NCBI GenBank assembly: GCA_017516445.1
Contig: JAFXCZ010000005.1
Coordinates: 1 to 33,398 of the forward strand
DNA length: 33,398 nucleotides
Direction: 5' to 3'
Source: Clostridia bacterium
GTDB taxonomy: Bacteria; Bacillota; Clostridia; Oscillospirales; Acutalibacteraceae
Under the pieces are notes generated by a model. That model worked only from the letters and a program-made list of their open reading frames with translations, made no database searches and had not been told where the DNA came from. Below are positions 781 to 11,840 of the stretch, one piece after another (the stretch's first letter is position 1; every line of letters starts with the position of its first letter). A program made the translations under genes and the position numbers.

Positions 781-1827
781 TTATTTTAATCTGATGTAAC
801 AGGTTGACTTCCCTTTACCCTCGCGTTTCAGTTCGCCTGACGCTACCATTTTACGTAGAGCACCTTCTACAGAACTAAGGCTAAGCGTCGGGCACAGTTC
901 ACGTATATCTTGCTTATTAAAGCGGCCAATCTTATTCATAGTAGCTTTGCGAACCATCTCAACGGCAGGAAGTTTCTCTTCAACAATAGCAAACCGATCT
1001 CCAAAGTCTTTGTATGCTGCGAGAACGGTGCCAAGCAAATATTTAATAAACGGAACAGTATCCTCAGTGCCCTCGTGCCAACCATGCTGAGAACGTCCAA
1101 GTGCATCGTAATACAAGTCCTTATTCTTAGCAATCTTTGCTTCTAGGGAAATGTATTTACCCACATAAAATCCGCTTCGGTACAGAAGCAACGTGGTGAG
1201 CAAACGGCTCATTCTCCCGTTGCCGTCGTTAAAAGGATGAATACAAAGAAAGTCGTGAACAAAAATCGGAATTGCGATTAACGGCTCCAATTCCATATTG
1301 CCAATAACACGGTTGTATTCATCACAAATTTTATCCAACGCCTCTGGTGTTTCAAACGGAGCAAGAGGAGTAAACAAAATCTCTGTATGTCCGTCAGGGT
1401 AAGTTGCACTAATATAATTCTGAACATTCTTTGTCTGACCGGCCATAGGGTTATTCATATGGCTGTACATAATTTTATGGAGTTGAAGAATATAATTGCG
1501 GGACAAAGATATCGCATCGAAACTTTCGTGAATAATAGAAAGAACGTCGCGGTAACCGGCAATTTCCTGTTCATCACGATTCTTAGGTGTCGTTTTCTCT
1601 TCCACCAACTGCTTGATACGGGTATTGGTGGTAACTATACCTTCGATCGCATTGGATGCTTCTGTACTCTGAATTTTTGCGATTTCGACCAACTTTTCCA
1701 ATTCTTCCGGACGTTGTTTAAGATACAATTCTTGCTTTCCTGCTTCTTTATATATTGCAGCTATAAGTCCTAAAATTTCAGAATCCCATTTTTGATTTTT
1801 AATAACAGAGTAATTAAAAGGTCTCAT
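781..1827 (-). CDS. Fic family protein (class II, with its own inhibitory helix)
   Basis: A 348-residue Fic protein, of the family that transfers AMP (or related groups) from a nucleotide to protein hydroxyls. The catalytic motif HPFNDGNGR is complete at residues 197-205, with His197 as the expected base. An inhibitory-helix motif of the S/TxxxEG type, S58-N-A-I-E62-G63, lies N-terminal to the Fic core. By family rules this makes it a class II, self-inhibited enzyme whose Glu62 would block ATP gamma-phosphate binding. The last ~70 residues look like a winged helix-turn-helix, as in many 'Fic plus wHTH' proteins. The start is supported by GGGAGGA just upstream. It is first in an apparent operon with the GHKL ATPase and has a strong promoter embedded in repeats. 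Targets cannot be deduced; the ATPase next door is one candidate. Confidence 0.9.
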   Translation of the reverse strand: MRPFNYSVIKNQKWDSEILGLIAAIYKEAGKQELYLKQRPEELEKLVEIAKIQSTEASNAIEGIVTTNTRIKQLVEEKTTPKNRDEQEIAGYRDVLSIIHESFDAISLSRNYILQLHKIMYSHMNNPMAGQTKNVQNYISATYPDGHTEILFTPLAPFETPEALDKICDEYNRVIGNMELEPLIAIPIFVHDFLCIHPFNDGNGRMSRLLTTLLLYRSGFYVGKYISLEAKIAKNKDLYYDALGRSQHGWHEGTEDTVPFIKYLLGTVLAAYKDFGDRFAIVEEKLPAVEMVRKATMNKIGRFNKQDIRELCPTLSLSSVEGALRKMVASGELKREGKGKSTCYIRLK

Positions 1828-1962: not shown

Positions 1963-1985
1963 GATCTTATATTTTATTATAACAA

Positions 1986-2015
1986 AGCCGGATGAACATC
2001 TGTGTCCATCCGGCT
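1986..2015 (-). terminator. Hairpin, probable terminator
   Basis: Nine-base perfect arms AGCCGGATG / CATCCGGCT with a 12-nt loop. Read leftwards, the hairpin is followed by TTTGTTATAATAAAAT, a T-rich but interrupted tail. It would stop transcripts coming from araC or the remnant element before they reach the fic promoter region. Confidence 0.55.
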
Positions 2016-2099
2016 GAGTGCTATGTATTTCAACACCTCGTTTTCAAGAAACTAAAAAGCCTAAAGCCGCCTGTTTTCTCGAAAAATTTCGGGCAAAAT

Positions 2100-2236
2100 C
2101 AGCGGAAAACCCAGTGTTTCTGCGGCTTTCAAGGCTTTTGTGTTATTATACCGCGAGCATCTATGCGTCTAACAATTCCTGTTGCTTTCATATATAAATC
2201 TCCTTTAATTTCAAATCGTGATACTATTATCTGTCA
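2100..2236 (-). repeat. SpoVT-leader repeat element, copy 1
   Basis: First of three same-orientation copies. On the minus strand it runs: an upstream block GTATCACGATTTGAAATT, an AAAGGAG ribosome site, the truncated ORF, a TATAATAACAC segment, then the conserved block GCCGCAGAAACACTGGGTTTT. Beyond the block, AAAAGCCT and AAAGCCGC in the 5' arm can pair with GCGGCTTT and AGGCTTTT near 2060-2080, a long stem ending in a T run. The outer limits of the element are uncertain; only the part shared with copies 2 and 3 is given. Confidence 0.7.
2129..2191 (-). pseudogene. Truncated SpoVT/AbrB-type 5' end (20 codons), copy 1
   Basis: The strong ribosome site AAAGGAG precedes ATG and the codons for MKATGIVRRID, the canonical start of the SpoVT branch of AbrB-family regulators. 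The frame then leaves the family sequence (ARGIITQKP) and stops at codon 21. The normal continuation (DLGRVVIPKEIRR) is absent. It is either a relic of a full gene or a short peptide kept for its own sake. Confidence 0.7.
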
Positions 2237-2271
2237 ATCGAGGAGATTTATACTGATTTACTTCTCTAAAC

Positions 2272-3063
2272 TTAAATTTGCCCTCTTTTGCGATATTGTA
2301 ACGGTGAGCAGTTTTCCTCCTCTTTGAAAACTCTACAAAAATAAGAAGTACTGCTAAATCCATATTTCCCGCTTATTTCGGTGATGGATAAATTTGTTTT
2401 TTTTAATTCATTTTTAGCAAGGACTATACGCGTTTTTAAAATATAGTTCATAACCGTCATTCCTGTATGCTTCTTGAATTGTCTGCAAAAATAGTATTTG
2501 CTTATATTTATAGCAGAGCAAATTTTATCAATATTTATATCCAGCGAAATATTTTCATTAATATACTTTATAGCCTTACTCATAAAACCTATGGTGGCAG
2601 GTGTGCTTTCTATGGTATATTTATCAAAAAAACAAAGCAATCGCAAAAGACAAGAGAATAAAGTCAATTCTTCGTTGAAACTCTTGCAACCATTCATTTC
2701 TTTAAAAATACCATCGACCTCATCTCTGTCGTTTTCATCTATTTCGGCATAAACGATCGCTTTATCAAAAAAACTTTTGAATATGTTGCTTTTGCTTAAT
2801 AGATCTGATATTTTGTCCAGTTCATAAGGTAATACCGCAAGTTTGCTTCGGTCATAGATTGCAGGTTCATCCGGCATCGTATAATGATATGTATTTGCGG
2901 CAATCAAAACAAGAGTTCCTTTTTTAATAGGAAAAACCTGTTCATTACTCACTATACTTCCGCCGTCCGAATAAAAGAATATAAATAGATGCTCTTTAGA
3001 AGCATGCCAGGTTTTATATAAGGGATCTTTACCCCGTTGATGATATACGATCCTTTTTTCCAT
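2272..3063 (-). CDS. AraC family transcriptional regulator
   Basis: A 263-residue regulator. Residues ~20-75 look like the cupin-type ligand-binding N-terminus of AraC proteins (FPIKKGTLVLIAANTYHYT resembles the usual pocket strand). Residues ~163-263 hold the two helix-turn-helix units, with ISKYYFCRQFKKHTG in the first and ITEISGKYGFSSTSYFCRVFK in the second, close to the family signature. It is divergent from the N-acetylneuraminate lyase gene, with 135 bp between starts, so it probably controls that gene in response to a sugar acid. The cupin fold and the neighbour support sialic acid or a related ligand, but this is inference. A direct repeat of AAGCAATA sits between the two genes. Its 3' end runs toward repeat copy 1. 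Confidence 0.9.
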   Translation of the reverse strand: MEKRIVYHQRGKDPLYKTWHASKEHLFIFFYSDGGSIVSNEQVFPIKKGTLVLIAANTYHYTMPDEPAIYDRSKLAVLPYELDKISDLLSKSNIFKSFFDKAIVYAEIDENDRDEVDGIFKEMNGCKSFNEELTLFSCLLRLLCFFDKYTIESTPATIGFMSKAIKYINENISLDINIDKICSAINISKYYFCRQFKKHTGMTVMNYILKTRIVLAKNELKKTNLSITEISGKYGFSSTSYFCRVFKEEENCSPLQYRKRGQI

Positions 3064-3102
3064 ATTCTCACCCCAAGTAAGATTAACATATTATCACCAA
3101 AA

Positions 3103-3131
3103 AAGCAATATTAGTAAAATTTTAAGCAATA
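3103..3131. promoter_or_regulatory. Candidate AraC-type operator
   Basis: AAGCAATA occurs as a direct repeat at 3103-3110 and 3124-3131. The 21-bp spacing equals two helical turns, which suits a dimeric AraC regulator binding half-sites on one face. It lies between the divergent araC and lyase starts. No convincing -35/-10 pair was seen for the lyase, as is common for activator-dependent promoters. Confidence 0.4.
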
Positions 3132-3198
3132 AACATCTATATTTCGGCGAATTTTTACGATATTCTAAAAGCACAAGTTTTATTCAGGAGGTAATGAA

Positions 3199-4068
3199 AT
3201 GGAAAAATATAAAGGAATTTTTACAGCTCTCTTAACCCCCTTTGACAAAAACAACAGGGTGAACGAAAAAGAACTTGAAAAACTGGTGAAATTTAATTTA
3301 GAGAAAGGCGTCAGGGGCTTCTACGTAGGCGGCAGTACCGCCGAGGCATTTCTGCTTTCTACTAACGAGCGTAAACAAATTATGGATGTAGTAAAGAGTA
3401 CCGCACCAAACGCTACCCTTATTGCTCACATTGGCTCTATAAATGAACGTGAAGCAACTGAACTTGCAATTCACGCGAAAAAAATAGGATATGATGTTAT
3501 TTCATCTGTAGCACCTTTTTATTATAAATTCACTTTTGAAGAAATTAAAAACTATTATTTCCGATTGGCAGATACCGCGGAACTTCCAATGCTTGTTTAC
3601 CATTTCCCCGCTTTTTCGGGTGTGAATATGGGCGTAAATGAAATGGGTCAGTTCCTTAATGATGATAGATTTTTAGGAATTAAATATACGTCAAATGATT
3701 TCTTCACAATGGAACAATGCAAGTCAAACTTCCCGGATAAGATTGTATACAACGGTTTTGATGAAATGTTTTTAGCGGGTCTTTCTATGGGGGCAGACGG
3801 CGGTATCGGCAGCACCTACAATTTTATGGCAGATAAATTTGTTAAAATCAAAGCTTTGTTTGAATCCGGTGAAATTGAAAAAGCACAAGAAATTCAAAAG
3901 CAGGCAAATAAAATTATTACTATTCTTTGCAAAATTGGCGTAATGCAGTCAGAAAAAGAAGTGTTAAATCAACTCGGCTTCGATTTTGGCATTTGCCGCC
4001 ATCCTTTTGGTGAGCCAAACACTGAGCAAAAACAACTAATCGCCAAAGAAATTATTCCGTTTATATGA
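3199..4068 (+). CDS. nanA: N-acetylneuraminate lyase (DHDPS/NAL family aldolase)
   Basis: A 289-residue class I aldolase of the dihydrodipicolinate synthase/N-acetylneuraminate lyase family, which cleaves sialic acid to N-acetylmannosamine and pyruvate. The GGST motif at 44-47 places it with NAL rather than DapA, whose equivalent is GTTGE. Tyr134 (in LVYHFP) and Lys162 (in GIKYTS) are the expected proton-relay tyrosine and Schiff-base lysine. The segment YNGFDEMFLAGLSMGADGGI also matches NanA closely. One difference is Ala48 in GGSTAE, where Gly is usual. The start has AGGAGG seven bases upstream. It is divergent from an AraC regulator; no sialic acid transporter or nanE/nanK neighbour is present, so the exact substrate could be another 2-keto acid. 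It ends at a strong palindromic terminator. Confidence 0.85.
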   Translation: MEKYKGIFTALLTPFDKNNRVNEKELEKLVKFNLEKGVRGFYVGGSTAEAFLLSTNERKQIMDVVKSTAPNATLIAHIGSINEREATELAIHAKKIGYDVISSVAPFYYKFTFEEIKNYYFRLADTAELPMLVYHFPAFSGVNMGVNEMGQFLNDDRFLGIKYTSNDFFTMEQCKSNFPDKIVYNGFDEMFLAGLSMGADGGIGSTYNFMADKFVKIKALFESGEIEKAQEIQKQANKIITILCKIGVMQSEKEVLNQLGFDFGICRHPFGEPNTEQKQLIAKEIIPFI

Positions 4069-4110
4069 TTAGAACAAACAGGGACGATATAGTTCTGTTG
4101 TTTTGACACA

Positions 4111-4136
4111 AAAGCGAGGTGAATTCACCTCGCTTT
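4111..4136. terminator. Palindromic terminator after nanA
   Basis: A perfect 26-nt palindrome with 13-base arms starting AAAGCGAGGTGAA, ending in a TTTT run. It is almost the same as the hairpin after the FAD oxidoreductase at 11805-11830. It could act in both directions. Confidence 0.85.
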
Positions 4137-4191
4137 TGCTATGTATCGGTCAAAATATGCTGCTTTTTGTCAAAAATTTTTCTTTAAAAAT

Positions 4192-4334
4192 CGCCTAAAA
4201 AGTCAGTGTTTATGCGGTCTTTTTAGCTCTTGGTGTTATTATATCTCATTCTTCTATACGACGTACAATACCTGTTGCTTTCATATATAAATTCTCCTCT
4301 TTTTATAATTTTAGTGTGATATTAGTATCACACT
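4192..4334 (-). repeat. SpoVT-leader repeat element, copy 2
   Basis: On the minus strand: ATAGTATCAC-like block, GAGGAG ribosome site, 12-codon ORF, GATATAATAACAC, then the shared block ACCGCATAAACACTGACTTTTT. Here CTAAAAAG and CTTTTTAG enclose the core as an 8-bp stem. A second upstream block resembling those of copies 1 and 3 (AATTTCAAATTGTGAT) lies displaced at about 4376-4391. It sits between the nanA terminator and the terminator of the secreted protein gene, with no other gene in this ~400-nt stretch. Confidence 0.7.
4246..4284 (-). pseudogene. Truncated SpoVT/AbrB-type 5' end (12 codons), copy 2
   Basis: GAGGAG, then ATG and codons for MKATGIVRRIEE, then TGA. The first ten residues equal those of copies 1 and 3, but with different synonymous codons. 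There is no downstream continuation of an AbrB-fold gene. Confidence 0.7.
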
Positions 4335-4338
4335 TTTT
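4313..4338. other. Perfect 9-bp hairpin in repeat copy 2
   Basis: AGTGTGATA (4313-4321) and TATCACACT (4326-4334) form a stem with a TTAG loop, followed on the plus strand by TTTT. It replaces the GTGATACTATTATC block of the other two copies. It could be an operator or a weak terminator for plus-strand transcripts. Confidence 0.45.
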
Positions 4339-4394
4339 GTAGAAATTATGAGCAGAATTTCCAATTGTTTTTAAAATTTCAAATTGTGATGTGA

Positions 4395-4427
4395 AAAGGG
4401 CGATGACATAATCAGTCATCGCCCTTT
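4395..4427 (-). terminator. Terminator of the secreted repeat-protein gene(s)
   Basis: Thirteen-base perfect arms beginning AAAGGGCGATGAC with a 7-nt loop, followed leftwards by TTTTCAC. It lies about 40 nt after the stop codon of the leftward 534-residue protein. Confidence 0.8.
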
Positions 4428-4465
4428 AGGGTTTAATGTCTATTTATCTCTTTACAAAGCTTTAA

Positions 4466-6070
4466 TTATTCGGCTTTTTTCTTTTTAATAACAATAAATG
4501 TAACGGCTCCGCCTGCTGCAAGTACAATTACTGCGCCGAGAACTATCCAAATCAGTCCACCGTTAGTCTTATTGTTGTCGGTCTTATCTATTTTATTTCC
4601 CTCGTTTTCAACTGTCGTATCACTTTCTTCAGTTTCGCCGTCTGTTGCTTGAATTTCATCATCGGTTGGATCTGTGACAGACGAATCGTTGGAACCTGAA
4701 TTTGTGGGCTCACTTGTTATGGGCTTTTCTGTAGAAGTGGTATTCTCATTAGAAATAGCATAAGCGCATATATCACACTTGTTATCCTTGTTTTGATCCT
4801 TGTGCGTCTCTTTTGCTACTGTGATAGATCCGCAAGAGGTATCCGTACATACCTTCCAGTGATTATCCTTATCGGTTTTCCAAACAGAATTTGTGTGCTT
4901 ATGTTCTTTACTGAGAGTGGTAAGTTTTACTGAAACATTGATGCTACCATCGTCAAAGGTTTCAACTGTTGCAGTTTTGCAATTTATTTTAGCCGTTAAT
5001 GATTTGCTAAACTTATATCCATCCTTGGCGGTGAGTGAGATTTTTACGGTATATCCGGTTCCGCCCTTAAATGTTTCGGTAGTGCCGGGGCTAATGTAGG
5101 ATGACGCCGATTTATACCAAGCGACTCCGTTTTTATAAATTTTTGTAGAAGTTCCGTTTAAGCCATTGTCACTGTAATAACCTGTACCGTCAATTTTGGT
5201 ATATGTGGGTTTTTCGCCGACTTTAGGCGCAGTAACCGAAAGGTCAATACTTGTAATTTCCTTTTTACCATCGCCGGGGACAAGGTCACCGAGGGATACC
5301 TTGGCATGGGTTGCATCAGTTACCGAAATGTTTGCGGCAGAACCGTTAATTGTACAGGCGGTAGCGGTGGTAAACTTATATCCTTCCTTTGCGGTGAGAT
5401 AATAGGTTACCTTGTACTTTGCGCCTTCTTTAAAAGGATTACTTACAGTTATGTTTATGTTATTGCTCTGATTTGTCCAGGTAACGCCGTTTGAACAGTT
5501 TGAAACTGAGCCATACTTTTCACTGAAATACTGCGTTGTATCAACCTTTGCGAAGGTTGGAGTTTTTCCAATAATAGGTTTAACAACATTAAGGTCAACC
5601 TTTTTTATGGCAGTTTTGGTATCGGCGGTAGAAGTAAGAACCGCCGATACGACAACACTTCCGTCCACATCGCTGTATTCAACCGTTGCAGTCTTTCCGT
5701 TTACTGTTGCAGTAACATTATTAGCAAACTTAAAATTTCCCTTTGCAAGCAGATTTATTTTAACTACGTAGTCCTTGTTTCCCTCAAAGGTAGCAGTTGT
5801 ACCCGGACTAAAATAAGACGAAGCGGATTTGTACCAAGCAATTCCGTTTTTGTAAATTCGGGTAGAAACTCCATTTAATCCATTGTCGCTATAATAACCT
5901 CTTCCATCTATTTTATCGTAGGCCGGCTTTGCCCCTTCTTGCGGAGAAGTTACCGTTAGGGTAAGATTTGTAAGGCTTTCTTCCTTCGCCGCAAAAACAG
6001 AGGTGGTTGGTATTAAGCATAACATCATAATTAATGCTAGCATCATAGCTAAACAATTTTTCATAAACAA
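4466..6070 (-). CDS. Secreted, membrane-anchored repeat protein
   Basis: A 534-residue surface protein of unknown function. A signal peptide occupies residues ~1-28 (hydrophobic core, then SVFAA). Three related units of ~110 residues follow (about 33-150, 156-267 and 272-385). Units 1 and 3 are nearly identical and share DGRGYYSDNGLNG/DGTGYYSDNGLNG, YKNG-AWYKSASSY and YKF or FKF strands; unit 2 is diverged. Then comes a Cys/His segment with paired CxxxxC and CDIC motifs, a Ser/Thr/Glu/Asp-rich stalk, and a C-terminal membrane segment at about 506-528 closed by KKKKAE. There is no LPxTG motif, so anchoring is by the helix rather than sortase. The layout suggests beta-sandwich adhesin or binding modules held off the membrane. 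An AAAGGAG lies 9 nt before the chosen ATG. It lies 88 nt after the larger secreted protein gene and is probably co-transcribed with it. Confidence 0.75.
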   Translation of the reverse strand: MFMKNCLAMMLALIMMLCLIPTTSVFAAKEESLTNLTLTVTSPQEGAKPAYDKIDGRGYYSDNGLNGVSTRIYKNGIAWYKSASSYFSPGTTATFEGNKDYVVKINLLAKGNFKFANNVTATVNGKTATVEYSDVDGSVVVSAVLTSTADTKTAIKKVDLNVVKPIIGKTPTFAKVDTTQYFSEKYGSVSNCSNGVTWTNQSNNINITVSNPFKEGAKYKVTYYLTAKEGYKFTTATACTINGSAANISVTDATHAKVSLGDLVPGDGKKEITSIDLSVTAPKVGEKPTYTKIDGTGYYSDNGLNGTSTKIYKNGVAWYKSASSYISPGTTETFKGGTGYTVKISLTAKDGYKFSKSLTAKINCKTATVETFDDGSINVSVKLTTLSKEHKHTNSVWKTDKDNHWKVCTDTSCGSITVAKETHKDQNKDNKCDICAYAISNENTTSTEKPITSEPTNSGSNDSSVTDPTDDEIQATDGETEESDTTVENEGNKIDKTDNNKTNGGLIWIVLGAVIVLAAGGAVTFIVIKKKKAE

Positions 6071-6158
6071 TTTCTCCTTTGTACTTTTGATTTATTGATT
6101 ATCACATCGAAAATTTTACCGTTCCCGATGGTACCAAACTAATAAATAATGCCCGCTA

Positions 6159-8534
6159 TCAGTTAGTTTTTTTAAACTTATAAGAAGACCATCCGGAATA
6201 ATACTTTTTACCGTTTATGGTCTTATAGGTGCGAACTCTTACATAGTAAGTTTTCTTGGCTTTCAAGTTCTTAAGAGTTGTAGAAGTTGTCTTATAGCTC
6301 TTAACAGTCTTTGTCTTTGTATATTTAGACTTAAAGCTCTTGCTGGTAGAATACTCAATCTGATAACCCGTAACTTGTGACGACTTTTTCTTAATGGTTA
6401 CTTTAAGGCTCTTTTTAGCGGCACTAAGCTTACTTACGCTTGTCTTTGGTGGATTAATCGTTAAGTATAAGGTCTTTGTTCCGCTATAATTACCTTTCAT
6501 GGTAACAATAACTTTATATTTTCCTACGTTCTTTCTTCCGGATGCATACTTCACTGTATAATGTGTGTTTTTCGTCAGTTTCGTTCCCTTTGCATTCTTT
6601 ACAGTTACGTAAGGTGTTTTTACCTTGCCATTGTATGTATACGTGGTGGTAGAAAGTTTAAAACTACACTTTGATGCACTAATTGGATTAATCTTAAAGC
6701 TTACCGTTTTTGTACCACTGTAGTTTCCTTTCAGGGTAACAGTCACTTTATATGTACCTGCATCCTTTCTGCCGGATGCATAGGTTACTGTGTAATCCGT
6801 GTCTTTTTTAAGCTCTGTTCCCTTGGAATCTTTTACTTTTACGGAAGGTGTTTTTACCTTGCCATCGTATGTATAGGACGTGCCGGAAAGTTCAACTGAT
6901 GAAACCTTACGAATTATAACAGTTGTTCTTGAAACTTCCTCTTTACAACTTTCACATTTCACAACTTCTTCATACTGTCCATCAGCGCTCATTGTAGCCT
7001 GTGTGAAATTCTCTATATCCTTTGATGTATCACTATGATTACATTTGATTTCAATCGGAATATAAAGATCGATTACTTTCCAATACTCGTTATAATAACC
7101 ATCTGCAATACCGGTCATTTCATGTCCATTAACAACGGTGGTTAATGACGTAGTATCAAAACTTGTTCCATCATGTTTAAAATCAAAGCCGTTATTAGCA
7201 CTTATTTCAAAATTGACGTAATAATAGAGATCGGGGTCAAGCAAATCTGTGTCCTCAGATTCGATTTGTTTAGCTGTTCCTCCCCTGTTCGGTTCGGTAT
7301 AAGACCGCAAATAAACATTCATGCAATATGCAACATCTTCTGTTCCGTTGCTTATGTTTTTGCCATCGAGTTGTCTGAGTTCTTTTGTCAGTTCATAGGC
7401 AGTAACTCCTACCACTGCTTTTTCTGTGGTGTAATTAATTAAAACTCTATCAATGATAGTCAATTGTTTAACCGTAATACTTGCAGTTGCCGATTTTGTT
7501 GGATCCTTAACTGAAGTTACCTCAATTGTAAGAACTTCTGCAGTTTCGTCTTTGCCCACTGCTAAAGTACATGTTTGATCATTGGGTGTAATCGTTGTGT
7601 TTGCACTGCTGTTTCCTGTAAGTTGCCATTCAACCTCGTGCGTGTCAGTTCCTATAACTGTTGCGGTAAACACTTTGCTGTCTCCTGCAAAAAGTGTTGT
7701 GCTCTGCGGGTCTACCTCCACGCTGTCTATTTCAAGCTTATCCAATACATTCAGCGTTACGGCATCATATTTCTCTGCATCTTTTTCGGAGCAGACTTTA
7801 ACCGTAATACTATCGGCTGTTTCATCAGCGGCTACCGTAAGTAAGCCCGAGCTACTAATAGTTGTACCGGCTTTTTGGGCGCCCTCCAAGCTCCATGTAA
7901 CTGCATCATATCCATCGCCATAAGATACGGTCTTGCTTTGGAATTGAATGGTATCGCCCTTTTCCACATTCACATCACTATTCGTAATTTCCACCGAATA
8001 CACTTTGCTTGAAGTGTCGATTTCAATCGGAATATAAAGCTTAATCAGTTTCCAATACTCGTTATAATAACCATCTGCAATGCCTGACATTTCCTCTCCA
8101 TTGATAAAGGTTGTCAAAGACGATGTATCAAATTCTGTTCCTGTATGCTTGAAATCAAATCCATTATTAGCTCTTATATGAAAACTAGCATAATAATAAA
8201 GATTTGGATCAAGAAAATCTATGTCTTCAGATTCAATTTGATTAGCTGTTCCTTTTCTTCCCTCTTCTGTATAAGACCACAAGTAAACATTCATGCAATA
8301 TCCAACATCTTCTGTTCCGTTGCTTATGTTCTTTCCATCAAGTTTTCTGAGTTCCTTTGTCAATTCATAAGCCTCTGCAGCGGGATGAGCATTTTCCGTG
8401 GTAAAGTCAATGCAAAGTTTATCGATGATTATAGGATCTGACCCTTCAGCAAACACCGTTAGCGGTGTAAATACCGACACTAAAAATGTTAGTGTTAACA
8501 CTAAACTAATGATTTTTTTCTTCAAAGCTTTCAC
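6159..8534 (-). CDS. Large secreted multi-domain protein (Ig-like and fibronectin III)
   Basis: A 791-residue exported protein. It has a signal peptide at 1-29 (ends VFA), then a ~140-residue module of unknown family (about 33-178), two Ig-like/BIG_2-type domains (about 180-355), and a second copy of the unknown module (about 356-495) nearly identical to the first. Two tandem ~75-residue beta repeats sharing YTY(D/N)GKVKTP and KGNYSGTKT lie at ~544-617 and 618-694. A fibronectin type III domain (~695-791) ends YYSGWSSYKFKKTN. No anchor is visible, though the very basic C-terminal third could bind the wall. The start is GTG, fixed by AGGAGG 7 nt upstream. The gene is divergent from the LuxR-type regulator, which may control it. 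It is likely an adhesin or matrix protein; no enzyme domain was recognised. Confidence 0.8.
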   Translation of the reverse strand: MKALKKKIISLVLTLTFLVSVFTPLTVFAEGSDPIIIDKLCIDFTTENAHPAAEAYELTKELRKLDGKNISNGTEDVGYCMNVYLWSYTEEGRKGTANQIESEDIDFLDPNLYYYASFHIRANNGFDFKHTGTEFDTSSLTTFINGEEMSGIADGYYNEYWKLIKLYIPIEIDTSSKVYSVEITNSDVNVEKGDTIQFQSKTVSYGDGYDAVTWSLEGAQKAGTTISSSGLLTVAADETADSITVKVCSEKDAEKYDAVTLNVLDKLEIDSVEVDPQSTTLFAGDSKVFTATVIGTDTHEVEWQLTGNSSANTTITPNDQTCTLAVGKDETAEVLTIEVTSVKDPTKSATASITVKQLTIIDRVLINYTTEKAVVGVTAYELTKELRQLDGKNISNGTEDVAYCMNVYLRSYTEPNRGGTAKQIESEDTDLLDPDLYYYVNFEISANNGFDFKHDGTSFDTTSLTTVVNGHEMTGIADGYYNEYWKVIDLYIPIEIKCNHSDTSKDIENFTQATMSADGQYEEVVKCESCKEEVSRTTVIIRKVSSVELSGTSYTYDGKVKTPSVKVKDSKGTELKKDTDYTVTYASGRKDAGTYKVTVTLKGNYSGTKTVSFKINPISASKCSFKLSTTTYTYNGKVKTPYVTVKNAKGTKLTKNTHYTVKYASGRKNVGKYKVIVTMKGNYSGTKTLYLTINPPKTSVSKLSAAKKSLKVTIKKKSSQVTGYQIEYSTSKSFKSKYTKTKTVKSYKTTSTTLKNLKAKKTYYVRVRTYKTINGKKYYSGWSSYKFKKTN

Positions 8535-8585
8535 TTTAAGACCTCCTTTTAAATTTTATGATTCAACGCGATAAAAACTAACGCC

Positions 8586-8614
8586 TTGTTTCATTTTGTA
8601 ATCTATGATATAAT
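8586..8614 (+). promoter_or_regulatory. Promoter of the luxR-xre pair
   Basis: TTGTTT (8586-8591) and a perfect TATAAT (8609-8614) with a 17-nt spacer, directed at the LuxR-type gene. It leaves a leader of about 115 nt before the ATG. Confidence 0.75.
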
Positions 8615-8639
8615 TATAATGGTTTCTATACCATTTGTC

Positions 8640-8724
8640 CCCATACTAAAAGTATGGGAAAAAGTGTTTTTTTAAAAAAGTATAGGAATTTTTGAGTTAG
8701 ACCGCCTATTAAAAAAACACGGTC
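8640..8724 (+). promoter_or_regulatory. Hairpin-bearing leader of the LuxR-type gene
   Basis: Within the leader, CCCATACT (8640-8647) pairs perfectly with AGTATGGG (8651-8658) around an AAA loop, with a run of seven T's at 8670-8676. Further on, GACCG (8700-8704) can pair with CGGTC (8720-8724), directly before the GGAGGA ribosome site. The second hairpin could influence translation start. No known riboswitch class was recognised. Confidence 0.4.
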
Positions 8725-8737
8725 GGAGGAGATCAGA

Positions 8738-9859
8738 ATGAAGAAGTTATTTGCAAGTACACCTATCTTGCTGTTTTTAATACTTTGTTTGTCGGGATGT
8801 AACGCTGTCGGAGCAAAAAGCGCAAGCCTAACAATCATCTACGGAGCTGCCGCCATGCTTTCTTTATTGCTTCTGATTGGTTGTTGCCGGTTGGTGCGAA
8901 AAAATAAGGTGTGGTTTGTTTTGCTGTTTTCATCGGTACTTGTGGTGAACATTGGATATGCCTTTTTGGCAATGTCCACAAGTCTCACGATGGCACTATG
9001 GGCAAACCGTGTGGCATATCTTGGCTCGGTATTTTTGCCTCTTGCAATGCTGATGATCATTCTGAATGTCACCAACACAAAGCATCCAAAATGGTTGCAC
9101 GGTGTTTTGGGAGCGTTATCTATTCTTGTGTTTCTCATTGCCGCAAGTCCCGGAATACTCACGATTTATTACAAAGAAGTTTCGTTTGCGATAGTAGACG
9201 GCGCATCCACACTTGAAAAAGTTTATGGACCGTTGCATCCGTTATATCTTGTTTATCTGCTTGGCTATTTTTTCGCTATGGTTGCAGTCATTATTCGTGC
9301 ACAGGTTAAGAAAACAATTGACACCATGGCTCACGCTGTTATTCTTGCAATTGCGGTATTTGTTAATATTGGAGTGTGGTTTATCGAGCAGATGACAAGC
9401 ATTGAATATGAAACGTTATCCATTTCATATATCATCAGCGAACTGTTTTTGCTTGGCATCCACCTTGTAATGAACGAGTACCAACGCATGAAAAAGATTA
9501 TCAAGCAGGTCGAATCGGTGCGGAGCTATTCCGATGCCGAATCTTCCACACCGGATGTGATGCTTGAAAAGCCGGTAGAGGATGAGGCTGCCTCCCCTGA
9601 GCGTATTGAAGTCTTTATGATGGGACTGAAAACGCTGACACCGACAGAACGGGAAATCTATGATGCATATATTGCCAGGGTTACCACCAAGGAGATTATG
9701 GCGAATATGAACATCAAGGAAACCACCTTGAAATATCACAACCGAAATCTTTACGGGAAGTTGGGAGTAGCATCCCGTAAGGAACTGCTTGAAATACATA
9801 AGCATATTAAATCCGTACAAGCCGCGTTCGAGGATGCAAACAATGTCACTGGCAAATAG
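8738..9859 (+). CDS. Membrane-bound LuxR-type regulator
   Basis: A 373-residue protein. The N-terminus has a hydrophobic segment ending in a lipobox-like LSGC at 18-21, then about seven more membrane helices to residue ~240, resembling the 7TM sensor region found on some histidine kinases. A short charged linker leads to a C-terminal LuxR/GerE helix-turn-helix (about 300-353) with LTPTEREIYDAY, the recognition-helix region KETTLKYHNRNLY and KLGVASRKELLE. There is no kinase or receiver domain, so it would be a one-component membrane regulator sensing directly through its helices. The start is supported by GGAGGA 7 nt upstream. It overlaps the next gene by 17 nt and is divergent from the secreted repeat proteins, which are plausible targets. 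Whether the LSGC cysteine is lipidated is doubtful, since it could be just the first membrane helix. Confidence 0.85.
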   Translation: MKKLFASTPILLFLILCLSGCNAVGAKSASLTIIYGAAAMLSLLLLIGCCRLVRKNKVWFVLLFSSVLVVNIGYAFLAMSTSLTMALWANRVAYLGSVFLPLAMLMIILNVTNTKHPKWLHGVLGALSILVFLIAASPGILTIYYKEVSFAIVDGASTLEKVYGPLHPLYLVYLLGYFFAMVAVIIRAQVKKTIDTMAHAVILAIAVFVNIGVWFIEQMTSIEYETLSISYIISELFLLGIHLVMNEYQRMKKIIKQVESVRSYSDAESSTPDVMLEKPVEDEAASPERIEVFMMGLKTLTPTEREIYDAYIARVTTKEIMANMNIKETTLKYHNRNLYGKLGVASRKELLEIHKHIKSVQAAFEDANNVTGK

Positions 9860-10058
9860 GTTAAATCAAATTATTGACGAACAGAAGATCTCCAAGCGTA
9901 AGTTTGCAAAACGGGTTGGGGTTTCCGAAAACTATGTATACACACTGAGCGGTGAGAGCAATAAAATCACCACGCTCTCACCAATGCTCGCAAAGGTAAT
10001 TGCAATGGAGTTCGGCTATGATGCCGAGTGGATATTGCATGGCGACAAAAAGGTATGA
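9843..10058 (+). CDS. Small XRE-type helix-turn-helix regulator
   Basis: A 71-residue single-domain DNA-binding protein: SKRKFAKRVGVSENYVYTLS is a clear XRE/Cro helix-turn-helix, followed by a phage-repressor-like tail EFGYDAEWILHGDKKV. I chose the ATG at 9843 because GAGG lies 9 nt before it. The longer in-frame starts at 9789 and 9834 lie inside the preceding gene and lack a ribosome site. The 17-nt overlap with the LuxR-type gene implies translational coupling, so the pair probably works as one regulatory unit. Confidence 0.8.
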   Translation: MSLANRLNQIIDEQKISKRKFAKRVGVSENYVYTLSGESNKITTLSPMLAKVIAMEFGYDAEWILHGDKKV

Positions 10059-10060
10059 CA

Positions 10061-10096
10061 AAAGCCGAATGAGTTTTAATGCTCATTCGGCTTTTT
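10061..10096 (+). terminator. Terminator after the luxR-xre pair
   Basis: Thirteen-base perfect arms (AAAGCCGAATGAG / its complement) around an 8-nt loop, ending in TTTTT. Confidence 0.9.
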
Positions 10097-10230
10097 CTGT
10101 GACAGTTTGAATATTTAGTTTTTGCTACTCAGATCAATGGATTTCTGACTCATATTTAGAATGTTATTCTGCTCCTTTCTAAAACCGCCCAAAAACCCGT
10201 TTTTGACACCAATGCGTCGGGTGGGGCAAA

Positions 10231-10368
10231 CCAGCGAAAACCCTAGTGTTTATGCGGGTTTGGGGCGGTTTGCCCTATTATAACGCATTACTCTATTCTA
10301 CGAACTATTCCAGTGGCTTTCATATACAAAATCTCCTTAAATTTCAAATCGTGATACTATTATTTGTG
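10231..10368 (-). repeat. SpoVT-leader repeat element, copy 3
   Basis: On the minus strand: AATAGTATCACGATTTGAAAT, AAGGAG, an 11-codon ORF, GTTATAATAGGGC, then CCCGCATAAACACTAGGGTTTT. GGGCAAACC before and GGTTTGCCC after the core form a perfect 9-bp outer stem, and AAACCC/GGGTTT an inner one, so the core lies in a hairpin loop. The flank at 10190-10210 includes TTTTTGACACC. No gene lies between the luxR-xre terminator and the promoter at 10394. Confidence 0.7.
10288..10323 (-). pseudogene. Truncated SpoVT/AbrB-type 5' end (11 codons), copy 3
   Basis: AAGGAG, then ATG and codons for MKATGIVRRIE, then TAA. It is the shortest of the three copies and uses the most different synonymous codons (GCC, ACT, ATA, AGA). 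Confidence 0.7.
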
Positions 10369-10393
10369 ATTGAAGGGAATTTATACTTTCAAC

Positions 10394-10422
10394 TTTACTT
10401 TTTAGAGCAACTATGGTATAAT
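10394..10422 (+). promoter_or_regulatory. Promoter of the small membrane peptide/FAD oxidoreductase unit
   Basis: TTTACT (10394-10399), a 17-nt spacer and a perfect TATAAT (10417-10422). It starts about 25 bp beyond the upstream edge of repeat copy 3 and points away from it. Confidence 0.75.
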
Positions 10423-10450
10423 TATCAAAAATTATTCGAGGAGCATAAAT

Positions 10451-10628: not shown

Positions 10629-11792
10629 ATGAAAAACTATGATATCGCGGTTTGCGGCGGTGGATTTGCGGGAATTTCGGCAGCTCTTGCCGCGGCGCGC
10701 GAAGGAAAAAAGGTTATACTTTTTGAAAAACAATATATTCTTGGCGGGCTGGGAACGGCGGGCCTCGTTACAATATATTTACCGCTTTGTGATGGTTTTG
10801 GGCATCAAGTTTCTTTCGGCATTGCCGAAGAGTTATTTAAGCTTTCTATTACTTACGGTGCGGAAGACCGCTACCCTGAAAACTGGCTTGATAATATTGG
10901 CACAAAAACAGAAGCAGACAAACGCTATGAGGTGCAATACAATGCACAGGTATTTGCCATTTTAGCGGAAAAATTGCTGTTAGAAAATGGTGTAGATATC
11001 CTTTACGGAAGTTATGTTGTTGATATTTCCACTGAAAACAACCGCATAACTAAGCTTTTTGTCGAGAATAAGTCAGGTAGAAACACCTTTTCTGTCGGTG
11101 CGGTTGTAGACGCTACCGGCGATTGCGACATTGCCCATTTTGCAGACGCACCTACTGCCCTGTTTGAGCAGGGGAATGCTCTTGCTGCATGGTATTATTA
11201 TACCAATCCGGACGGATATCATTTACAAATGGTCGGTGTGTTGGAAATCCCCGAAGAACGCAGTGGCAATAAAGAAAAGCTGCTTACCAACCGTCGTTTT
11301 ACCGGTATTGACGGTAAAGAGCTTTCCGAGCAGGTCTGCCTATCACATCAATCAACGCTGGAGCATTGGTTGAAAAAAAGAGAAACCGATAAAAATGCAG
11401 TTATTTCTACCATTGCAACCATTCCGCAAAATCGTATGACTAGAAAAATAGTCGGCGAATATGAGCTTTCGGACACTGAAATGCACACCTATTTTGAGGA
11501 CTCTATCGGAATGGTGGCCAACTGGAAAAAGCGTGGTCCTGTATATGAAGTGCCATTCAGAACACTTTATAATAAAGAAATTAAAAATTTAATCGTTGCA
11601 GGGCGTTGTACATCCGTAAATGAAGCCTTATGGGATGTAATGCGTGTTATTCCTTGTTGCGCTGTAACCGGTCAGGCAGCAGGCACTGCTGCGGCGATGA
11701 CAGATGATTTCTCGACTCTTGATGTTTCAAAACTGCAAGAAAAACTAAGAAATAACGGTGTAGTCATTCACGAAAAGGATATTCTCAAATAA
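10629..11792 (+). CDS. FAD-dependent oxidoreductase
   Basis: A 387-residue flavoprotein. The N-terminal Rossmann dinucleotide motif GGGFAGISAALAAAREGKKV (about 10-29) is followed by the FAD-contacting ATGDCD at ~165-170 and a C-terminal NLIVAGRCTSVNEALWDVMR segment, as in the FAD_oxidored (PF12831-like) family. Members often lie in carbohydrate or organic-acid degradation clusters, but the substrate is not predictable here. The ribosome site is AGAGGAGAG, about 8 nt before ATG. It follows the 45-residue membrane peptide and ends in a terminator almost the same as that of nanA. This suggests the two genes have a shared history or context. Confidence 0.85.
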   Translation: MKNYDIAVCGGGFAGISAALAAAREGKKVILFEKQYILGGLGTAGLVTIYLPLCDGFGHQVSFGIAEELFKLSITYGAEDRYPENWLDNIGTKTEADKRYEVQYNAQVFAILAEKLLLENGVDILYGSYVVDISTENNRITKLFVENKSGRNTFSVGAVVDATGDCDIAHFADAPTALFEQGNALAAWYYYTNPDGYHLQMVGVLEIPEERSGNKEKLLTNRRFTGIDGKELSEQVCLSHQSTLEHWLKKRETDKNAVISTIATIPQNRMTRKIVGEYELSDTEMHTYFEDSIGMVANWKKRGPVYEVPFRTLYNKEIKNLIVAGRCTSVNEALWDVMRVIPCCAVTGQAAGTAAAMTDDFSTLDVSKLQEKLRNNGVVIHEKDILK

Positions 11793-11804
11793 TTACCGTT
11801 TCAA

Positions 11805-11830
11805 AAAGCGAGGTGTAATCACCTCGCTTT
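11805..11830. terminator. Bidirectional terminator between FAD oxidoreductase and nitroreductase
   Basis: Arms AAAGCGAGGTG / CACCTCGCTTT, loop TAAT, with A and T runs on both sides, between convergent genes. Its arms match the nanA terminator. Confidence 0.85.
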
Positions 11831-11840
11831 TACTATACGT

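Follow-up and report, generated by a model that had tools for sequence, protein, structure and literature searches.

Introduction

Integrons and the clusters of attC sites lacking integron-integrases (CALIN) are one-orientation arrays of small cassettes, each with one or a few genes, whose diverse cargo belongs to a cross-species pool; crossover at attC lies between G and TTRRRY, and recombination proceeds on a folded strand. Cis-mobilizable elements (CIMEs) have att-like ends and no integration gene, and stand in tandem at the target of a recombinase-bearing element in the accretion of integrative and conjugative elements. Staphylococcal and enterococcal cassette chromosomes (SCC and ECC) use ccrAB large serine recombinases, have rlmH as their target and carry direct repeats at their boundaries, and composite SCC arrays are mentioned in the excerpted text of the same source (PMC6222049). 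In Dehalococcoides, the ssrA islands of the DsiB serine recombinase lie in tandem with a partial copy of one core gene at their boundaries, and some islands without integration genes were suggested to be cis-mobilizable and moved by accretion, as excerpts of the source have it (PMC3146451). Here we describe arrays of small cassettes at the start of the sporulation gene spoVT, identified from a 33,398-nucleotide stretch of a Clostridia bacterium of the Acutalibacteraceae (contig JAFXCZ010000005.1, assembly GCA_017516445.1), referred to below as the window.

The window contains three short open reading frames (ORFs) that begin with the peptide MKATGIVRRI. These are very likely the junctions of an integron-like cassette array inserted in tandem at spoVT codon 10/11. 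As far as sequence comparison can establish it, the architecture of such arrays, their single orientation, the position of spoVT at the 3' end, the GA boundary and the movement of cassettes between distant genomes are well documented.

As far as compared, the spoVT cassettes resemble CIMEs, with repeats at both ends of 73 cassettes and no recombinase found in the loci searched, but they are small and re-start their target gene. Unlike integrons, the arrays have their boundary at GA inside spoVT and carry cargo in both directions (56 genes with spoVT, 73 against); no tyrosine integrase of the IntI type was found beside them in 138 array loci searched with eight recombinase queries, no IntI model being run. 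With SCC and ECC they share the character of site-specific islands with variable cargo at one gene end, boundary direct repeats and an association with large serine recombinases. The target, however, is the 3' region of rlmH there and the 5' coding end of spoVT here, and the spoVT cassettes are 0.7-8 kb long and bring a promoter and start codons. A ccr-type large serine recombinase was found in none of the cassettes searched and is present at the end of big elements at the same site. The tandem arrangement and the partial core-gene copy at boundaries are common to the arrays and the ssrA islands, which differ in lying at the 3' end of the transfer-messenger RNA gene with a 20-bp repeat and in having an integration module in 16 islands, according to the excerpted source (PMC3146451). 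The spoVT repeat, by contrast, consists of a promoter and a protein start, and no cassette was seen with a recombinase.

By the features tested, the spoVT arrays are not members of the integron or SCC families, and by analogy they may work like SCC/ECC and the Dehalococcoides ssrA islands. Searches of the open literature, which covered few subscription papers or preprints and judged longer result lists by their first titles, returned no description of spoVT cassette arrays. The original prediction, made from the window's letters alone, had held that no known family describes these repeated starts; this stands in so far as no array with a spoVT target was found in the literature, and falls in that the logic resembles known serine-recombinase island arrays.

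Three truncated spoVT starts in the window

A ribosome-binding site (RBS), an ATG and codons for MKATGIVRRI occur three times on the minus strand of the window, with the ATG at 2191, 4284 and 10323. Alignment bore out the claim that these copies differ only synonymously: seven of the ten codons (codons 3-9) vary, and every difference is synonymous. The repeat is well beyond chance (copy 1 with its flanks against its own genome: E 5.1e-27 for copy 3, 4.0e-16 for copy 2) and extends past the peptide, with promoter-like boxes and the RBS upstream and a second conserved block from codon 11 on, in the order GAGGAATGTGTTATAATA..., CCGCATAAACACTGGG... and a terminator-like palindrome. What had been taken for 140-bp units with a truncated gene is instead read as the junction of one cassette's right end with the next cassette's left end. 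No Rfam family was found in the window. A conserved structured RNA was considered for the downstream part and rejected, as single-strand folds only mildly beat shuffles in two of three copies (z -1.95, 0.12 and -2.25); a terminator-like hairpin remains.

A fourth copy was found in the same genome (57% complete) at C1:91-246 (E 4.2e-23), where the stub lies at the end of contig C1. The single intact spoVT of the genome (C13:47758-48288) lies 211 bp from a contig end, and the window's contig terminates within a cassette carrying a Fic gene. We infer that the window contig, C1 and C13 join into one array. The full-length SpoVT has AbrB-type DNA-binding and SpoVT_C domains (Pfam), of which the truncated copies hold ten residues only.

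Arrays in related genomes and the insertion site

The repeat was matched at E 1e-3 in 40 of the 60 genomes searched, the window's own included. At least two matches were present in 20 of 36 genomes of the same genus and in 5 of 23 of other families; a single short match may be a spoVT start alone. In relatives the matches cluster on one strand at a spacing of about 1-6 kb, and many contigs end near them. A junction pattern matched at least 117 stretches, and the arrays comprise 203 non-redundant elements.

Two or more copies were present at 57 loci, none of which had copies on both strands. At 41 loci a stub and a full-type start occurred on one strand; 31 of these end in a complete spoVT (ORF of at least 165 aa), three leave the locus end and in two the last copy is a start interrupted after 33 or 60 residues, while in five a full-type start cut after 33-61 residues is followed by a stub. 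These cut starts (seven loci) are mostly insertions at a second spoVT site near codon 33. A complete spoVT followed by a stub was never observed, spoVT being the last copy in all 31 loci with both. Since spoVT comes last in the reading direction and all copies share one strand, the stubs are remainders of spoVT starts after insertion at codon 10/11 of a piece that ends in a fresh start. In aligned copies, similarity to spoVT stops at codon 10/11, at a GA that marks the insertion point, and a different conserved sequence begins there; after codon 11 the stubs differ in length and content, most being 12-26 codons long within an overall range from 10 to 40 or more.

A phage origin was rejected, with no match of the junction pattern in viral contigs and none of the repeat in phage records. 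A plasmid origin was likewise rejected; the only repeat match in plasmids was 49 bp long and lay under an annotated spoVT. In a phylum-wide draw, 5 of 118 other genomes matched the repeat at 1e-6, each over 33-60 bp inside the conserved start region. In L164, L197 and L188 (oriented positions ~5010, 6251 and 3378) a similar small repeat sits inside the MKATG codons of dead copies, so that the repeats of the arrays in turn serve as insertion targets for a further small element.

The following course would account for this architecture. Each cassette would consist of a conserved left end (GA and GGAATGTGTTATAATA..., a hairpin and a terminator), one or a few unrelated cargo genes, and a right end made of a sigma-G-like promoter, an RBS and spoVT codons 1-10. 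An incoming cassette would sever the old spoVT start, leaving it as a stub, and supply a new one; spoVT would remain intact and remain a target, and repeated insertion would build an array. Selection on spoVT would preserve the ten residues at every right end and leave synonymous sites to drift, and the stubs would carry the record. The exchange would be made in trans by a large serine recombinase from elements such as the Flavonifractor/Pseudoflavonifractor island, and the cassettes may pass through a circle.

Cassette size, cargo and movement

The 73 non-redundant complete cassettes, delimited by intact starts so that some may be composites with a decayed junction inside, measured 659-7879 bp (median 2014). 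They held 129 called genes, and 41 had a single gene. A domain scan of 107 of 121 cargo proteins gave 104 Pfam families, each in at most four proteins; the commonest were AraC-type and other helix-turn-helix (HTH) regulators, DNA methylases, Fic, flavin adenine dinucleotide (FAD) oxidoreductases, type I specificity subunits and Schlafen-AlbA. In the PADLOC list for the cargo proteins, models for methyltransferases, Fic and the like came first. No transfer genes were among the 25 commonest of the 104 families in the 107 proteins, no search having been aimed at them.

One cassette, whose genes we take by eye to be metH and a neighbour, was 97-99.4% identical across L041, L159, L166 and L175. Its adjoining sequence was alike only over at most 138 bp, mainly the repeat (right side compared in L041, L159 and L166, left side in L041 and L175). 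Between L041 and L166, identity is 64% for the spoVT body and 99.4% for the common cassette, which makes the cassette much more recent than the divergence of its hosts. In L051, L109 and L178, which carry the same cassette after different neighbours, near-identity starts at the codon 11 GA, and several of codons 4-10 differ synonymously.

The boundary was also examined in pairs of junctions sharing a cassette end at 85-99.8% identity (30 left-end and 28 right-end pairs, not independent). In left-end pairs identity rose above background from the first base after GA, and most positions before it were near background. In right-end pairs it was above background in the RBS region and at codons 3, 4, 7 and 9.

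Candidate recombinases for cassette exchange

We lean, by a modest degree, towards large serine recombinases acting in trans as the agents of exchange. In Flavonifractor sp. An112 and Pseudoflavonifractor Marseille-P3106 the junction forms the left end of elements of ~67 and ~153 kb, at the same GA. Both begin with ParA/ParB-like genes (by motif) and end between ...TTGACACATTAG and GACGA in spoVT, whose start is not restored; three large serine recombinases lie beside their far end (Pfam-tested in An112, with one-to-one matches in Pseudoflavonifractor). Island and cassettes have a common left half-site, the first ~24 bp. The arms ACACATT/AATGTGT stand equidistant about GA; among 20,000 shuffles a 7-base run occurred in 96 and as many matches in 637. 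Such symmetric arms are expected of a serine-integrase attP attachment site. Arrays and recombinase-bearing elements were not observed side by side at this site.

The second insertion site, near codon 33, was represented by right ends in L332, L334, L338 and L218 and by left ends in L053, L128, L136, L146, L168, L175, L198, L333 and L341. In the four genomes with right ends an ORF for a serine recombinase (483-725 aa as open frames) continues, in frame, into what remains of spoVT. This site has an 11-bp inverted repeat, AATGTTATCAG/CTGATAACATT, about a GA, and also holds recombinase-free cassettes that re-start spoVT (L146, L341). With serine-recombinase elements at both sites, spoVT is a hotspot for them. 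A single Flavonifractor-element recombinase as the universal enzyme was rejected: 33 of 60 relatives matched one at 1e-20 with a best identity of 40%, and several array genomes had no match. The only contig with both a match to a Flavonifractor recombinase and a repeat match (G023:C3) holds the second-site element. In G033, and also in the genome of the window, a serine recombinase gene near a weak match to the repeat looked like a candidate for the enzyme; it was set aside, as the match was a stretch resembling an RBS and the element is one of a different site.

At L300:6045-9208 (the window's own genome, G000:C3) and L299:5981-9155 lie a near-identical serine recombinase and ATPase-like gene. 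The gene downstream, by eye, is presumably that of sigma-G without its first part, and this is perhaps a further sporulation gene struck by a serine-recombinase element.

Several observations weigh against this account. None of the 4050 ORFs of at least 70 codons in the 138 array loci matched the four serine and four tyrosine recombinase queries at 1e-3, with one weak match at 0.017. PF00239 was absent over the cut-off in 4 of 10 array-bearing genomes in a 13-genome check (G010, G031, G054 and G059, three of them less than 90% complete). Past the 24 bp, which include positions required by the pattern, similarity between the island's left end and the cassettes was not significant (E 0.11). For the dyad, a consensus cassette arm was set against the island arm; with the island's own arm the symmetry is weaker, at 10 of 25 matches. 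Serine integrases normally join attP to attB, whereas the site on a circular cassette would be attL-like. Only 1 of 60 relatives has the broken-site pattern of the Flavonifractor element, with two mismatches, and no gain or loss of a cassette was seen within a species. To these are added the possible composites among the 73 cassettes, the third base of codon 10 in left-end pairs (identity 0.67 versus a background of 0.41), and codons 5, 6 and 8 in right-end pairs, which were less or not above background and not clearly linked to the cassette. Gene conversion is not claimed for these codons, as ordinary synonymous drift suffices.

Homologous recombination between the ~100-bp repeats could instead have built and shuffled the arrays after rare, old site-specific insertions, with no recombinase acting on the cassettes now. 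We regard this as rather unlikely. The empty recombinase search of the 138 loci, the four array genomes without a serine recombinase over the cut-off and the loose tie of codons 5, 6 and 8 all fit it, as do the repeats themselves, which are ~72-88% alike over 100-200 bp. It sits badly with left-end identity that rises at the base after GA and not at scattered points, and with near-identical cassettes that have different neighbours and spoVT bodies 64% identical.

A tyrosine recombinase, of integron type or the host's Xer type, acting in trans on the junctions is improbable. The logic of the arrays is integron-like, and a Phage_integrase-domain protein was present over the cut-off in 13 of 13 genomes checked, with and without arrays, and in 59 of 60 relatives; the enzyme's presence is, however, independent of that of arrays. 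Tyrosine recombinases are expected to have an overlap region of 6-8 bp, for which the common core is short, being no more than GA directly preceded by a variable wobble base, and the end of the island at the same site carries serine recombinases. In an XerD-like tyrosine recombinase of this group, ~295 aa long (L064, L065, L072, L078, L086, L088 and others), ATGIKVSEL stands where the family has a catalytic arginine (GLRVSEL).

Selection record and exchange of spoVT starts

A profile of the downstream part only gave 168 non-redundant junctions out of 239 matches, after removal of matches starting beyond model position 12, duplicates and short flanks; MKATGIVRRI was exact in 148. Most loci had been chosen by a pattern that requires the peptide; to offset this, one match to it was dropped for each locus so chosen, 97 of the 168 in all. 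Of the 71 remaining, five with more than three residue mismatches were also omitted. Among the 66 copies compared, 53 were perfect over the ten residues, with 193 synonymous and 19 non-synonymous departures (ratio of non-synonymous to synonymous change, pN/pS, 0.075). Where DNA similarity was the sole basis for finding a locus, 36 of the 40 copies compared were perfect. Random non-synonymous change in the ten codons was thus not found, as the original prediction had anticipated in speaking against random decay, though decayed copies do occur, with lost starts, a stop or small insertions within codons. Codon choice in the stubs resembles that of full spoVT starts. Selection holds the right end while it is the working start of spoVT and is released once the end is covered; the stubs record selection if turnover is fast relative to decay.

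The prediction had offered two origins for this pattern. The first, descent from translated and selected genes, proved correct, the source being the first ten codons of spoVT. The second, selection on the short peptide itself, read here as a function of the 11-20 residue peptides, for example as leaders, is not needed and very improbable. A strong RBS, the 53 perfect copies and a TATAATA conserved shortly after codon 13 are in its favour; yet stubs range in length from 10 to 40 or more codons, with variable sequence after codon 11, broken copies exist, and the same residues and codon choices in full spoVT starts are explanation enough. Chance truncation of several complete AbrB/SpoVT paralogues decaying independently, to which the SpoVT N-terminus and the further decay of some dead copies might point, is scarcely credible given the switch from spoVT similarity to a different conserved sequence at codon 10/11 and the single SpoVT match (at 1e-15) in 47 of 49 relatives, the other two having two.

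The pattern GHATR-N16-18-VATNNTA, built on the sigma-G consensus boxes, was present upstream of 100 of 154 stubs (shuffles 3.3) and of 32 of 44 full-type starts, which include copies cut at the second site (shuffles 1.05). In Bacillus, SpoVT is made in the forespore under sigma-G, according to the excerpted source (PMC5061766). Right ends often have an inverted repeat around the promoter by eye, and several copies are without one.

In 56 complete spoVT genes, taken out of 69 full-type starts and coming from both array-bearing and array-free genomes, similarity of the 70 bp upstream was uncorrelated with that of the body after codon 11 (r = 0.04, 1540 pairs). The 40 pairs with the most similar upstream 70 bp (90-99%) had spoVT bodies only 57-70% identical. 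Judged from these sequence comparisons, the spoVT start is exchanged independently of the gene body.

Cassettes of the window

The window holds two complete cassettes, of 6,039 and 2,093 bp, and the Fic cassette, which is open at the contig end (Table 1). The Fic module recurs in arrays L040, L055, L143, L171 and L172, and pieces of the 6,039-bp cassette are 81-86% similar in L041. The stretch 11758-11837, between nitroreductase and FAD-oxidoreductase genes, is probably a decayed fourth junction, with no core or spoVT start left; apart from this terminator part, the left end of the FAD-oxidoreductase cassette seems to be gone. One surface-protein gene has internal repeats at 6450-8318, with 81% identity over 300 nt and 77% over 212 nt, and in this resembles modular adhesins.

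Table 1. Cassette ends and cargo genes assigned in the window; the right-end profile was built with element 1, and the left-end profile with the Fic-cassette copy, among its members (DHDPS, dihydrodipicolinate synthase).
Feature	Position	Strand	Basis
Fic-family protein, cargo	781-1827	-	Pfam PF02661
Fic cassette left end (P' head): recombination half-site, TATAATA 2144-2150, terminator-like hairpin	1971-2158	-	profile E 9.4e-29; fold z -1.95
20-codon ORF left by insertion (MKATGIVRRI, then next cassette)	2129-2191	-	ORF list, alignment
Element 1, AraC/DHDPS cassette right end: sigma-G-like promoter, RBS, ATG, spoVT codons 1-10	2160-2263	-	profile E 3.8e-27; copy alignment
Element 1 sites	-35 2249-2253; -10 2225-2231; RBS 2199-2203; ATG 2189-2191; core GA 2160-2161	-	profile coordinates
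AraC-family regulator, cargo of 2,093-bp cassette	2272-3063	-	Pfam PF00165/PF12833
DHDPS family enzyme, cargo of 2,093-bp cassette	3199-4068	+	Pfam PF00701
AraC/DHDPS cassette left end (P' head); palindromic terminator-like stretch ~4111-4140	4082-4251	-	profile E 8.6e-34; sequence
12-codon ORF left by insertion	4246-4284	-	ORF list, alignment
Element 2, surface-protein/LuxR cassette right end	4253-4399	-	profile E 1.1e-17
Element 2 sites, with ATG and codons 1-10	-10-like GATACTA 4323-4329; RBS 4293-4297; core GA 4253-4254	-	profile coordinates
Two secreted/surface proteins, cargo of 6,039-bp cassette	4466-8534	-	4466-6070 no Pfam match; 6159-8534 fn3 and I-set matches
Seven-transmembrane (7TM) histidine-kinase-type N-terminus and LuxR-type HTH, cargo of 6,039-bp cassette	8738-9859	+	Pfam PF16927, PF00196
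Small HTH gene after LuxR-type gene, 6,039-bp cassette	9789-10058		Pfam PF12844
Surface-protein/LuxR cassette left end (P' head)	10045-10289	-	profile E 4e-30; 10175-10290 fold z -2.25
11-codon ORF left by insertion	10288-10323	-	ORF list, alignment
Element 3, FAD-oxidoreductase cassette right end	10292-10425	-	profile E 2.2e-25
Element 3 sites, with ATG and codons 1-10	-35 10382-10386; -10 10358-10364; RBS 10332-10336; core GA 10292-10293	-	
FAD-dependent oxidoreductase, probable cargo	10629-11792	+	Pfam PF12831
Probable remnant of fourth cassette left end (terminator part only)	11758-11837	-	profile E 4.2e-6, model positions 112-198

Implications

A broader proposal can be put forward only tentatively: the spoVT arrays may represent a second, independent invention of the integron idea, in which a recombinase-free cassette pool spread across gut Oscillospirales families is moved in trans by large serine recombinases, with the spoVT start as common docking site. 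Each insertion would replace the promoter and ten codons, giving an array held under sporulation selection and a spoVT expression that can be reset.

Tool makers may take an interest in a widespread gene that contains a serine-recombinase target, and the arrays may explain the frequent contig ends at spoVT-like repeats in these genomes. That the spoVT start is exchanged apart from its body bears on promoter evolution and on the building of trees. The ends of the mobile elements make selection on a host gene readable, with synonymous drift in well over a hundred copies and residues mostly fixed. For the mostly uncultured gut clostridia, the arrays would constitute a route of gene exchange that our literature searches had not turned up, with restriction-modification genes, Fic proteins, regulators and carbohydrate enzymes among the cargo.

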